Assembly: GCA_021779195.1 (NCBI GenBank)
Contig: JAJYBB010000027.1
Coordinates: 1 to 41,656 of the forward strand
Origin: Bacteroidota bacterium
Lineage (GTDB): Bacteria; Bacteroidota; Bacteroidia; Bacteroidales; Paludibacteraceae
Length of the DNA stretch: 41,656 bases
Reading direction: 5' to 3'
Positions 22,872 to 26,672 of the stretch are shown piece after piece. The position numbers and the translations under genes are program-made. The stretch's first letter is position 1, and each line of letters opens with the position of its first letter. Under the pieces are notes generated by a model. That model searched no databases, was not told where the DNA came from, and saw nothing but the letters and a program-made list of their open reading frames with translations.

Positions 22872-25841
22872 ATGAATACTCCAAGTATAAAAAAACTGTA
22901 TTTTAAAGACACTTCATTTGCCAATTTAATGCGCCATCGCATTTACAATGTTTTATTATTTGCCAGTAAATACGATGCTTTTGTATTGGAAGAAGATGGC
23001 CGAATTGATGAGCAAATTTTTAATGAATATACTTCGTTAAATTTACGCTATCCGCCTCGATTCACTTTGGTTTCTACTGAAGAAGAAGCAAATATTCAAC
23101 TTCAGGAGCGTGCTTTTGAGCTGATTATTTCGATGCCCAGTGGCGATAGTATCAATCCTTTTGAATGGGCAAAAAAAGTCAAAAAACGGCTTCCTGACAT
23201 ACCCATTGTAGTGCTGACCCCTTTTTGTAATTCAGTTTCGCAACGAATATCCAACGAGGATTTAAGTGCCATCGATTATGTATTTAGTTGGCTTGGCAAT
23301 TCCGATATTTTGCTTGCAATAATTAAGCTGATCGAAGATCGAATGAATCTTGACGAAGATGTACATTCTGTTGGTGTACAGATAATTATGTTTGTAGAAG
23401 ATTCAATACGATGGTATTCATCCATTGTGCCACATTTGTATAAATTTGTTTTCACTCAGTCGCGTTCGTTTATGACCGAAGCTTTAAACGAACATGAACA
23501 AATGCTTCGAATGCGCGGTCGACCTAAAATTGTGTTGGCAAGATCGTTCGAAGAAGCCATGGAAATCTATAAAACTTTCAAAAAAAACATGTTGGGGGTA
23601 ATAACCGATGTGAGTTTTCCACATCATGGAGAAAAGGATAAAACCGCAGGAATCGATTTGTGTCGAGAAATCCGAAAATTCGATACGTACATTCCGTTGA
23701 TTGTTCAATCGACTGAAGATGCAAATAAAGTAGCTGCGGATGAAGTTAAAGCTGCTTTTATCAGTAAAAATTCTAAGACTTTAATGTTGGAACTTCGCGA
23801 GAAAATTATCAATAATTTTGGTTTTGGAGATTTTGTTTTCATTCATCCGACAACAGGAGTGGAAGAGGCTCGAATTCACAACTTACGAGGACTTCAGGAT
23901 ATTTTATTTAAAATCAGTGATGAGTCGTTGTTTTTTCATGTTTCGCGCAATAATATTTCACGATGGTTGTATTCAAGAGCCATGTTTCCGCTGGCGGAGT
24001 TTTTAAAAAATATTCAAGTCGATAACACCTTTGTAACCGACTTGCAAAAAGTGCGTCAAATTATTTTTGATGCCATCGTACAATATAGAAAAGTGAAAAA
24101 TCGTGGTGTTGTCGCTGTTTTTCAGCGTGATAGATTTGATCAATATTCAAATTTTGCCCGAATTGGCGAAGGTTCTTTGGGTGGAAAGGGACGTGGTTTG
24201 GCATTTATCGATGCTATGATTAAACGACATGATGTTTTTGAACATTTTGAAAACACCCAAATTACAATTCCGAAAACAGTTGTTCTGTGTACAGATAATT
24301 TTTCGGAATTTATGGAGATGAACCAGCTTTATCCTTTGGCGTTGAGCGATTTGATGGATGAAGACATCTTAGCTAAATTTCTGAATGCTAGACTCCCACA
24401 GCATCTTCTCGCCGATTTGCATGCCTTTTTAAGTGTAGTTAATTCTCCGATTGCCGTTCGTTCGTCAAGTTTATTGGAGGATTCACATTATCAACCTTTT
24501 GCCGGGATTTACACTACTTATATGGTGCCCTATGATGGTGAAAGTAAAACACATATGCTCGAAATGGTTGTTGAAGCTATTAAAGCAGTGTATGCATCTG
24601 TTTTTTTTCAGGCCAGTAAAATGTATATAACAGCCACCAAAAATATAATCGATGAAGAAAAGATGGCGATTGTTTTACAGGAAATATGTGGAAATCAATA
24701 TAATGATCGTTACTATCCTTCTTTTTCGGGCGTGGCTCGCTCGTTAAATTATTATCCGATCGGAAATGAAAAACCTGAAGATGGAGTTGCCAATGTGGCT
24801 ATGGGTTTAGGAAAATATATTGTCGACGGTGGATTAAGTCTTCGCTTTTCACCAGCCCATCCACACAATATTTTGCAAATTAGTACAAGAGATTTGACAT
24901 TACGTGAAACACAAACCTATTTTAATGCGTTGGATTTAAGTAAAAATCAATTTATACCACAAGTAGATGATGGATTTAATTTGTTGAAAATTAATGTTCA
25001 GGATGCACTCCCTGATGGAACTTTGCATTTGCTGGCATCAACTTATAATTTGCAGGATGATGTTATTGAAGATGGCATTTATGATGATGGTCGTAAAGTA
25101 ATAACTTTTGCCAATATATTGAAACACAACGCATTTCCGCTTGCTGCAATTTTAAAAGATGTTTTACATATTTCTCATTCTGAGATGGGACGTCCCATTG
25201 AAATTGAATTTGCAGTAAATCTTGACTATTCTTCTAAAAATCAGCATATTTTTTATTTGTTGCAGATTCGTCCAATTGTTGATAGCAGAGAAATGATAAA
25301 TGAAGATATAGATTCAATCTCGGATAGTAATGCGATAATTACTTGTAAAAATGCCTTGGGACACGGTATTACCTCGAATATTTTCGATTTGGTATATGTA
25401 AAACCTGAGAAATTTAATGCTGCGAATAATCAAAAAATTGCCATGGAACTTGAAAAATTGAATAAGGAATTTTTCTTACAAAATCGCCAATATATTCTCG
25501 TCGGACCTGGTCGTTGGGGTTCAGCTGATCCGTGGTTGGGTATTCCCGTGAAATGGCAGGCAATAAGCCAAGCACGTGTAATTGTCGAATCAGGTCTTGC
25601 AACTTATCGGATTGAACCAAGTCAAGGCACCCATTTTTTTCAAAATCTGACTTCATTCGGAGTTGTTTTTTTTACCATTAACCCTTATCAAAATGATGGA
25701 AGTTATGATACTCAATTTCTTAACGATCAACCTGCTACGTTTGAAACTGATTTTATTCGTCATGTTCAATTTAATGCGCCTTTGGTTATCAAAGTAGATG
25801 GACGCAAAAATGTTGGGGTCATTCTTAAACCAGGTACTTAA
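22872..25841 (+). CDS. Dual receiver-like plus PEP-synthase-type ATP-grasp protein
   Basis: A cytoplasmic 989-aa protein. Residues about 62-160 look like a receiver domain that has lost its phospho-acceptor (LIISMPS where Asp is expected). Residues about 168-315 form a second receiver with the acidic pair E176-D177, acceptor D246 (GVITDVS), S280/T281 and K299, with an insertion after the first helix. Residues about 430-805 match the ATP-grasp domain of PEP synthase/pyruvate phosphate dikinase: RIGEGSLGGKGRGL, AVRSSSLLEDS (R530) and a closing FYLLQIRPIV. The swivelling phospho-His domain and the PEP-binding barrel of those enzymes are absent; instead there is a tail of about 180 residues with GPGRWGSADPWLG. 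So it should bind ATP and may transfer phosphate, but it is not a complete PEP synthase. Related Bacteroidota proteins are often labelled PEP synthase, which is probably misleading. It lies 3 bp before the cyclophilin gene, so the two are likely coupled. Confidence 0.85.
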   Translation: MNTPSIKKLYFKDTSFANLMRHRIYNVLLFASKYDAFVLEEDGRIDEQIFNEYTSLNLRYPPRFTLVSTEEEANIQLQERAFELIISMPSGDSINPFEWAKKVKKRLPDIPIVVLTPFCNSVSQRISNEDLSAIDYVFSWLGNSDILLAIIKLIEDRMNLDEDVHSVGVQIIMFVEDSIRWYSSIVPHLYKFVFTQSRSFMTEALNEHEQMLRMRGRPKIVLARSFEEAMEIYKTFKKNMLGVITDVSFPHHGEKDKTAGIDLCREIRKFDTYIPLIVQSTEDANKVAADEVKAAFISKNSKTLMLELREKIINNFGFGDFVFIHPTTGVEEARIHNLRGLQDILFKISDESLFFHVSRNNISRWLYSRAMFPLAEFLKNIQVDNTFVTDLQKVRQIIFDAIVQYRKVKNRGVVAVFQRDRFDQYSNFARIGEGSLGGKGRGLAFIDAMIKRHDVFEHFENTQITIPKTVVLCTDNFSEFMEMNQLYPLALSDLMDEDILAKFLNARLPQHLLADLHAFLSVVNSPIAVRSSSLLEDSHYQPFAGIYTTYMVPYDGESKTHMLEMVVEAIKAVYASVFFQASKMYITATKNIIDEEKMAIVLQEICGNQYNDRYYPSFSGVARSLNYYPIGNEKPEDGVANVAMGLGKYIVDGGLSLRFSPAHPHNILQISTRDLTLRETQTYFNALDLSKNQFIPQVDDGFNLLKINVQDALPDGTLHLLASTYNLQDDVIEDGIYDDGRKVITFANILKHNAFPLAAILKDVLHISHSEMGRPIEIEFAVNLDYSSKNQHIFYLLQIRPIVDSREMINEDIDSISDSNAIITCKNALGHGITSNIFDLVYVKPEKFNAANNQKIAMELEKLNKEFFLQNRQYILVGPGRWGSADPWLGIPVKWQAISQARVIVESGLATYRIEPSQGTHFFQNLTSFGVVFFTINPYQNDGSYDTQFLNDQPATFETDFIRHVQFNAPLVIKVDGRKNVGVILKPGT

Positions 25842-25844
25842 AAA

Positions 25845-26672
25845 ATGAGATTTATGAAATTAATTGGTATTTTATTTGTTTTTACTTTGTTAATTTGTTC
25901 ATCGTGTTCTTCGCCTAAGCCCATTGAACAAACCGTAGTTTTTGAAACAAATTATGGAAATATTACGTTAAAACTTTATCCGGAAACGGTAAAACACCGT
26001 CAAAATTTCCTCAAATTAGTAAATTCGGGTTTTTACAACGGACTTTTGTTTCATCGCGTAATTGCAGGTTTCATGATTCAGGGTGGCGATCCAACTTCAA
26101 AGAATGCAGCATCGGGAGTTATGCTTGGTTCCGGAGGTACAGGTTATAATATTCCATCGGAAATATTATTTCCAAAATATTATCATAAGAGAGGGGCATT
26201 GGCTGCTGCCCGAGAAGGTGATCAAGTCAATCCGTTACGCGCATCTTCTGGATGTCAGTTCTATATTGTTCAGGGTAAAACCTTTACTGACCTTGAACTG
26301 GATAGTATTGAACAAGTTAATATATTGAAATTTCAGGATAAAATTTTGAAGAAAATTTTGAAAACGAAGAAAGGAGAAATTATTGAGTTTCATAAATATC
26401 ATCAAAATTCCAAATTGAAACTACTGCAAGATAGCATTTTAGCTGAAGTTCAGGCTCAAATGAAAAAGCATCTACCCTTTCAGTTCACAGCTCAACAAAG
26501 AAATGATTACAAAACGATAGGAGGAGCACCACATTTGGATGGTGAATATACTGTTTTTGGTCAGGTAGTCAATGGAATGGATATTGTGGATAAAATTTCG
26601 AATGCCGCAACGGATGAAAATGATCGCCCATTACGAAATATTCGAATTTTAAAGGCGTATATTAAAAAATAA
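25845..26672 (+). CDS. Cyclophilin-type peptidyl-prolyl isomerase, lipoprotein
   Basis: Periplasmic prolyl isomerase, 275 aa, aiding protein folding in the envelope. The signal ends in a lipobox region (LLICSSC; Cys18 or Cys21 is lipidated). The cyclophilin core shows FHRVIAGFMIQGGDP (about 69-83, with catalytic R71 and Q79), SGCQFYIV (about 135-142) and a final HLDGEYTVFGQVVNGMDIVD (about 231-250). A helix-rich insert at about 146-222 splits the domain after the SGCQFYIV strand. The start could also be ATG 25854 (MKLIG), which gives a tidier signal peptide. It starts 3 bp after the large ATP-grasp gene. Confidence 0.9.
   Translation: MRFMKLIGILFVFTLLICSSCSSPKPIEQTVVFETNYGNITLKLYPETVKHRQNFLKLVNSGFYNGLLFHRVIAGFMIQGGDPTSKNAASGVMLGSGGTGYNIPSEILFPKYYHKRGALAAAREGDQVNPLRASSGCQFYIVQGKTFTDLELDSIEQVNILKFQDKILKKILKTKKGEIIEFHKYHQNSKLKLLQDSILAEVQAQMKKHLPFQFTAQQRNDYKTIGGAPHLDGEYTVFGQVVNGMDIVDKISNAATDENDRPLRNIRILKAYIKK

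Follow-up and report, generated by a model that had tools for sequence, protein, structure and literature searches.

A two-receiver PPDK_N ATP-grasp protein of Bacteroidota that is often encoded beside glutamate dehydrogenase and is probably a switch over ammonia uptake

Introduction

Our question was what a protein that places two receiver domains in front of an ATP-grasp of the phosphoenolpyruvate (PEP) synthase type might act on. The gene lies at positions 22872-25841 of a 41,656-nucleotide stretch of DNA from a member of the Paludibacteraceae (Bacteroidota; assembly GCA_021779195.1, contig JAJYBB010000027.1), and by the window we mean this whole stretch. An earlier sequence-only reading had proposed a signal-controlled, ATP-using enzyme with an unknown acceptor. 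The first part of that proposal fits the architecture, the invariant Asp and Lys of the second receiver and the invariant ATP-grasp residues, but the acceptor can be narrowed, since the gene is found repeatedly beside glutamate dehydrogenase (GDH) across Bacteroidota. Because the gene often adjoins a GDH gene, the protein is probably a switch over ammonia uptake in these bacteria, and we consider it reasonably likely that it works as a two-component-controlled, ATP-dependent regulator of GDH.

Bacteroidota are one of the dominant groups of the human gut, and one of their main routes of ammonia assimilation runs through GDH. For Bacteroides fragilis, the accessible text of one report gives GDHs a fundamental role in nitrogen assimilation (PMC4539542). 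The protein considered here is widespread in gut and environmental Bacteroidota and is itself unstudied.

Domain architecture of the protein

The gene is an open reading frame (ORF) of 989 residues with an ATG start on the forward strand, and the reverse complement of the same interval contains many stops in the single frame that was translated. The features are given below as coordinates in the window, strand and description. Domain borders are approximate, and loops 39-59, 535-546 and 915-922 have low confidence in the full AlphaFold2 model.

22872-25841, +, whole gene, 989 residues, receiver (REC)-REC-linker-ATP-grasp-tail, from the ORF call
23049-23366, +, REC1, about residues 60-165, predicted acceptor Asp replaced (S87), from AlphaFold2 secondary structure, PleD matches and hhalign
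23367-23825, +, REC2, about residues 166-318, with E176, D177, D246, S280 and K299, from a sub-threshold Pfam match and invariance
23607-23609, +, codon of D246, an invariant Asp and the predicted phosphorylation site
23826-24146, +, linker, residues 319-425, mostly helical in the AlphaFold2 model, with weak similarity to DUF5752 below the cut-off
24174-25310, +, PPDK_N ATP-grasp, residues 435-813, with K439, R530, E779, Q798 and R800, from Pfam
25278-25838, +, tail at the C-terminus, residues 803-989 in the model, folding confidently but unmatched in the PDB
25503-25523, +, GPGRWGS motif in the tail, residues 878-884, R881 invariant in the alignments
25632-25634, +, codon of H921, an invariant His of the SQGTHFF motif that may be catalytic or carry a phosphoryl group

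The ATP-grasp matches Pfam PPDK_N at residues 435-813 with 132.9 bits against a cut-off of 27, and comparison with 21 PPDK/PEPS-type proteins (PPDK, pyruvate phosphate dikinase) gave a probability of 96%, over part of the domain. By sequence, the protein comes closest among curated models to PEP synthase and the prodigiosin ligase PigC. Among the NCBIfam curated equivalogs the best score is 57 bits where 883 are required, so the protein falls outside the PEP synthase and PPDK equivalogs. The best PDB sequence matches, with E-values of 0.08-0.6, are entries named phosphoenolpyruvate synthase, which we take to be rifampin phosphotransferases.

The receivers are seen mainly through structure prediction. 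Pfam Response_reg at residues 207-294 scores 27.6 bits, just under its cut-off of 30.2. The full-length AlphaFold2 model, built from 63 aligned sequences, has a mean predicted local distance difference test (pLDDT) of 81.1 and a predicted template modelling score (pTM) of 0.65, and it contains two receiver-like alternations of strands and helices. When the whole model is compared with the PDB by Foldseek, the ten best matches are tandem-receiver PleD chains (E-values 2.8e-6 to 1.2e-4), and maize PPDK ranks 13th (E-value 1.8e-3). The profiles of REC1 and REC2 match each other in hhalign with a probability of 93%. These results support a receiver fold at residues 62-315, as the sequence-only reading had assumed.

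That reading had also described the ORF on this strand, a first receiver without an acceptor Asp, a second one with D246, K299, E176 and D177, an ATP-grasp of the PEP synthase type with R530, the absence of His and PEP domains, and an unusual tail; all of these hold up, on the evidence given here and in the sections on conservation and on the tail. For the absent domains, neither the PF00391 histidine domain nor a PEP barrel has a Pfam match in the protein at an E-value of 1 or less, and the ATP-grasp is followed only by a tail of 187 residues.

Residues conserved across the family

Our orthologue set consists of the best 80 of at least 573 stretches encoding a relative in a genome scan, and its members share 59-80% identity with the window protein. 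D246, K299, E176 and R530 are each identical in 81/81 sequences (the window protein and the 80 orthologues), and D177 in 77/81. REC2 is a receiver with an acceptor Asp and the conserved Lys. The position that we take from the model to be the acceptor site of REC1, residue 87, is Asp in 0/81 sequences (C in 33, S in 29, T in 5, M in 4, V in 3 and others in 7), and with this assignment REC1, which has a receiver-like fold in the model, would be an aspartate-less receiver.

The broad alignment holds 51 sequences, made up of the window protein, 20 orthologues, 20 distant full forms and 10 short or long relatives. K439, R530, E779, Q798, R800, R881 and H921 are identical in all 51, and D246, S280 and K299 are identical in the 41 full forms. 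H921 is also invariant in 63/63 of a second set of aligned sequences. The first five of these residues are presumably counterparts of the PPDK nucleotide-site residues, and the alignment to a solved structure that was seen covers the R530 region and, weakly, residues 761-802.

Distribution and forms of the family

Family matches were found in 257 of 295 sampled Bacteroidales genomes at an E-value of 0.001 or less, with genome G268 giving only a weak match; the assignment of these genomes to Bacteroidales is taken from named relatives. In a sample of the phylum, 36 of 198 genomes match the family, and 34 of these matches are real; the other two (G056 and G129) consist of a receiver only and were not counted as family. 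Outside Bacteroidota, a search of plasmids gave nothing beyond short PPDK_N matches, in Deinococcus and Thioclava.

There are three main forms. The full form has about 1000 residues, the short form of about 580 residues is ATP-grasp and tail only, and the long form, with 1010-1065 residues in the six that were examined, has a different N-terminal region followed by the ATP-grasp and the tail. Four of the six long forms carry a nucleotidyltransferase-like GS...SDID motif at the C-terminus (L113:4805-7987, L114:6374-9565, L115:8646-11837 and L116:4960-8157), and these four lie near GDH genes in distant Bacteroidota. Of four long proteins scanned with Pfam, two (L113 and L114) have a recognizable nucleotidyltransferase domain, and the window protein has no Pfam match to a Pol-beta nucleotidyltransferase domain. 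In one genome the family gene is in two adjacent pieces (G553:C74:19505-22446) and the nearby GDH is fragmented too, which could mean disrupted genes or sequencing errors.

Pairing with glutamate dehydrogenase in Bacteroidales

We looked at the neighbours of the gene in 120 Bacteroidales loci, made up of the 80 orthologue loci and 40 that were fetched, one locus being a repeat. The commonest immediate neighbour is a divergent GDH gene (36 loci), and the runner-up is a transporter-like gene (8 loci). A GDH gene is present in the available flanks of 41/80 orthologue loci, many of the others having short flanks. In Parabacteroides distasonis gdhA is divergent to the family gene, with a further GDH some 3.5 kb past the end of the gene, and in Phocaeicola massiliensis a GDH is likewise divergent to it.

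Distances could be counted in 110 of the 295 genomes, those with both genes placed among the matches listed, which excludes genomes with lower-scoring copies. In 37 of these 110 a GDH gene lies within 3 kb of the family gene, being downstream and co-directional in 23 and upstream and divergent in 14; for genes placed at random the chance is about 0.2% per genome. The Bacteroidales genomes are related, so these counts are not independent; the differing arrangements nevertheless speak against a single block passed on by descent.

Several observations weigh against a role in GDH control. No GDH lies within 3 kb in the other 73 of the 110 genomes, and the window's own genome has its GDH on another contig (contig 19), unlinked to the gene. 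Among the 40 fetched regions, chosen from the highest-ranking matches of the order, a GDH is found in the flanks of 9 and is missing from those of 31. Eight of the 257 gene-bearing genomes have no GDH match (G206, G239, G242, G266, G325, G422, G423 and G436; five are rated 65-89% complete and three 97%). GDH is also common where the family gene is missing: 32 of the 38 Bacteroidales genomes without the gene have it, and in the phylum sample 184/198 genomes match GDH and 36 match the family query. Given the unlinked genes, the genomes without GDH and the GDH genes without a family gene, the relation is not obligate.

The unlinked and GDH-less genomes would agree with a link that is accidental or comes only from a shared regulon, with the protein controlling something else. 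An excess of 37/110 over about 0.2% per genome, spread over several arrangements and two GDH families, argues against this, and we regard it as very improbable.

Two other neighbours can be mentioned here. The transporter-like gene, presumably for a peptide (POT) transporter, is directly downstream in loci L001, L005, L006, L010, L012, L013, L014 and L015. In the window a cyclophilin-type ORF (25845-26672) begins 3 bases past the stop of the gene. The closeness pointed out in the sequence-only reading is real, but this neighbour is not conserved: no relative of it occurs in the flanks available at the 80 orthologue loci, some of which are short, and we take it as a merely local neighbour and not as a partner.

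Pairing across the phylum and two GDH families

In the phylum sample the pairing mostly takes a third arrangement. Among the matches listed, to which the counts in this paragraph and the next refer, a GDH lies within 5 kb of 28/33 full-form genes (21/26 genomes), and in 26 of these 28 it is upstream on the same strand. The corresponding numbers are 8/9 for short-form genes and 13/18 for long-form or other genes, where the 18 include frames of other length (777, 782 and 931 residues). Every one of the 34 genomes whose family match is real has a GDH match too.

The neighbouring GDHs belong to two families. GDH-A scores above the cut-off of the NCBIfam model for NADP-specific GDH, and GDH-B is nearest to the archaeal-type GdhA model, under its cut-off. 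The nearest GDH is GDH-A in 28/28 full-form cases, and it is GDH-B in 7/8 adjacent short-form and 13/13 long-form cases, or 20/21 for the two forms together. The short-form exception is G035, where one cluster holds both GDHs and all three forms.

In 20 full-form contexts that were fetched (L113-L132), GDH-A is an immediate neighbour in 19, and a complete GDH-A is immediately upstream on the same strand in 17. The distances of these 17 adjacent pairs correlate (r 0.72, a value reached in 0 of 10000 permutations), and for 16 of the pairs the closest full-form relative has a GDH-A of the same subtype. Two points from this set belong with those that speak against GDH control. The correlation also contains shared species history, and GDH-B is an immediate neighbour of 3/20 of these full-form genes and within 5 kb of 7/20. 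By class, the pairing is strong where the short and long forms are concerned; in the full forms it amounts to a tendency, and it is not strict.

This looseness would agree with a parallel metabolic enzyme, which spends ATP on glutamate, 2-oxoglutarate, ammonia or a nicotinamide cofactor and is paired with GDH through a shared pathway and not through control. The PPDK_N enzymes that are known mostly use small molecules as substrates, and PEP synthase and PigC are the nearest curated models. However, the N-terminal receivers suggest regulation, relatives with different attached domains tend to different GDH families, and Pfam recognizes no substrate domain in the protein, so that we think a parallel enzyme distinctly unlikely.

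Kinase genes near the family gene were noticed in four distant clusters only (L121:11322-13397, L122:9673-12425, L129:9953-12875 and L130:10785-12858). In these, genes judged by eye to encode a sensor kinase and a NarL-type regulator come after the full-form gene beside GDH. Pfam confirms the kinase and regulator domains in L121 and the kinase in L129. The four sensor kinases are candidate kinases for D246. Separately, histidine biosynthesis genes, recognized by eye from the protein starts, flank the distant GDH clusters L113-L116, L121 and L130.

The C-terminal tail and a possible mechanism

The tail, at about residues 803-989, contains GPGRWGSADPWLG. Modelled alone it gives an AlphaFold2 pLDDT of 90.6 and a pTM of 0.89. 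Searches with it were made in several ways: Foldseek against the PDB gave a best E-value of 5e-3 and a template modelling score of at most 0.33 among the best 50, a PDB profile search gave a best E-value of 0.47, comparison with a viral structure library returned nothing useful (best E-value 1.3e-2), and the window sequence of the tail has no Pfam match at an E-value of 10 or less. At the sensitivity of these searches, the tail is a conserved domain that matches no known fold.

The tail could be thought of as a diverged phospho-histidine domain, given that the order of its elements and the invariant His look alike by eye. This was rejected, as hhalign against 20 histidine-domain sequences, drawn from L205-L250 as those with the full 150-residue segment and the motif, gave probabilities of 0.1-0.2%, and neither PPDK nor PEPS appears among the best 50 Foldseek matches; we leave it as speculation. 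That Foldseek and hhalign recognize no carrier-histidine fold in the tail is a further point against GDH control by phosphoryl transfer.

We propose the following sequence of events. It builds on the observed domains, the invariant residues and the repeated genomic pairing; GDH as the target, an effect on its activity, phosphorylation of D246 and phosphoryl-transfer chemistry are inferred. A signal of nitrogen or energy status would lead a histidine kinase to phosphorylate D246 of REC2, and REC1, lacking an acceptor, would serve as a structural or dimerization partner. The phosphorylated receivers would release the PPDK_N ATP-grasp, which would then bind ATP. The ATP-grasp and the tail, with R881 and H921, would act on GDH and switch its activity, most likely by ATP-dependent phosphoryl transfer and possibly through H921, which is in the SQGTHFF loop (residues 915-922, low pLDDT in the full model).

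The same protein could instead be a non-catalytic allosteric partner, which would sense ATP/ADP through its ATP-grasp and attach to GDH as a regulatory subunit, transferring no phosphate. Thermus GDH has regulatory partner subunits, the genomic pairing fits such a role equally well, and both the missing carrier-histidine or acceptor domain (Pfam, hhalign) and the lack of a known fold for the tail (Foldseek) would be in keeping with it. Against it, the seven ATP-grasp and tail residues that are invariant in 51/51 sequences seem to go beyond what a nucleotide sensor would need, and we think this alternative rather unlikely. We keep the phosphoryl-transfer mechanism as our working model of GDH regulation.

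A lead in Bacteroides thetaiotaomicron

The genus of genome G362 offers a connection to earlier genetics. In this genus one GDH type lies within 5 kb of 35/57 family genes, and a second type is convergent downstream within 5 kb of 10/57. The gene order in G503, of the same genus, is malic enzyme, GDH, catalase, family gene, GDH, and NCBIfam supports the names of the GDH and its neighbours for L251 and L262. In B. thetaiotaomicron BT1969 is described as the malic enzyme (PMC8865466) and BT1971 as the catalase (PMC12596196, PMC4595636), in the parts of these papers that were available. From this order and these two assignments, the B. thetaiotaomicron counterpart of the family gene is probably BT1972 by synteny. 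BT1971, at first considered as the counterpart, is ruled out as being the catalase, and a search of the open literature for the BT1972 tag turned up only a paper about BT1969.

According to its title, as cited in PMC4539542, the study of Baggio and Morrison (1996) concerns the dependence of B. thetaiotaomicron GDH activity on trans-acting gene(s) downstream of gdhA. The family gene is, by synteny, a candidate for these trans-acting gene(s). Reportedly, GDH activity in E. coli could be brought back in trans by a downstream segment of 3 kb. The family gene would be compatible with a segment of this length, and we treat this as a lead and not as evidence. The order partly differs within the genus, so that the synteny is not universal: in G557 about 48 and 75 kb separate the family gene from the two GDHs, in G547 about 44 kb separate it from one GDH, the other being on a different contig, and in G523 a catalase follows a GDH with the family gene about 22 kb away. 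No later identification of the 1996 gene(s) was found in the open literature, and the accessible part of PMC5552732 does not mention 'trans-acting' or 'inactivat'.

Discussion

The value of this analysis is that it names a candidate for the 1996 trans-acting gene(s), with specific residues to mutate. If the proposal is true, it would also give a function to proteins now called just 'PEP/pyruvate-binding domain-containing protein', and it would define a new partner domain for the ATP-grasp.

The combination of a receiver with PPDK is already in print, and the GDH partner is what is new here. One paper notes REC-PPDK as a 'Bacteroides-like' combination (PMC5847659); it is the same combination as in the window protein, and in the part of that paper available it is named without a function or a partner. 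Pyruvate phosphate dikinases are also listed among the enzymatic domains highly associated with aspartate-less receivers (ALRs; Maule et al. 2015, PMC4395418), and REC1 likewise appears to be without an acceptor. The available passage of that paper on ALRs and PPDK concerns plant C4 metabolism, however, and the window protein adds a second, complete receiver. A link between REC-PPDK and GDH was not found in the open literature, subscription papers not being covered.

Compared with known PPDK_N enzymes (PEP synthase, PPDK, rifampin phosphotransferase and PigC), the window protein has in common with them the ATP-grasp with its AVRSS.LED and LLQ.RP motifs. It differs in that neither PF00391 nor a PEP barrel was found in it, the fold of its tail is unmatched, and receivers stand in front.

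More broadly, we put forward, tentatively and with less confidence than the regulatory role itself, a new kind of post-translational GDH control. In it, PPDK_N proteins with a new catalytic tail (R881, H921) would form dedicated pairs with GDH across Bacteroidota, the forms tending to different GDH families, some gated by receivers and others by another N-terminal region and carrying a nucleotidyltransferase domain. Such proteins would do for GDH what GlnE and GlnD, the nucleotidyltransferases controlling glutamine synthetase, do for that enzyme. The window protein differs from GlnE and GlnD in lacking their nucleotidyltransferase domain, but controlling an ammonia-assimilating enzyme covalently would be a parallel to what they do, and some of the long relatives do have a nucleotidyltransferase domain at their C-terminus.

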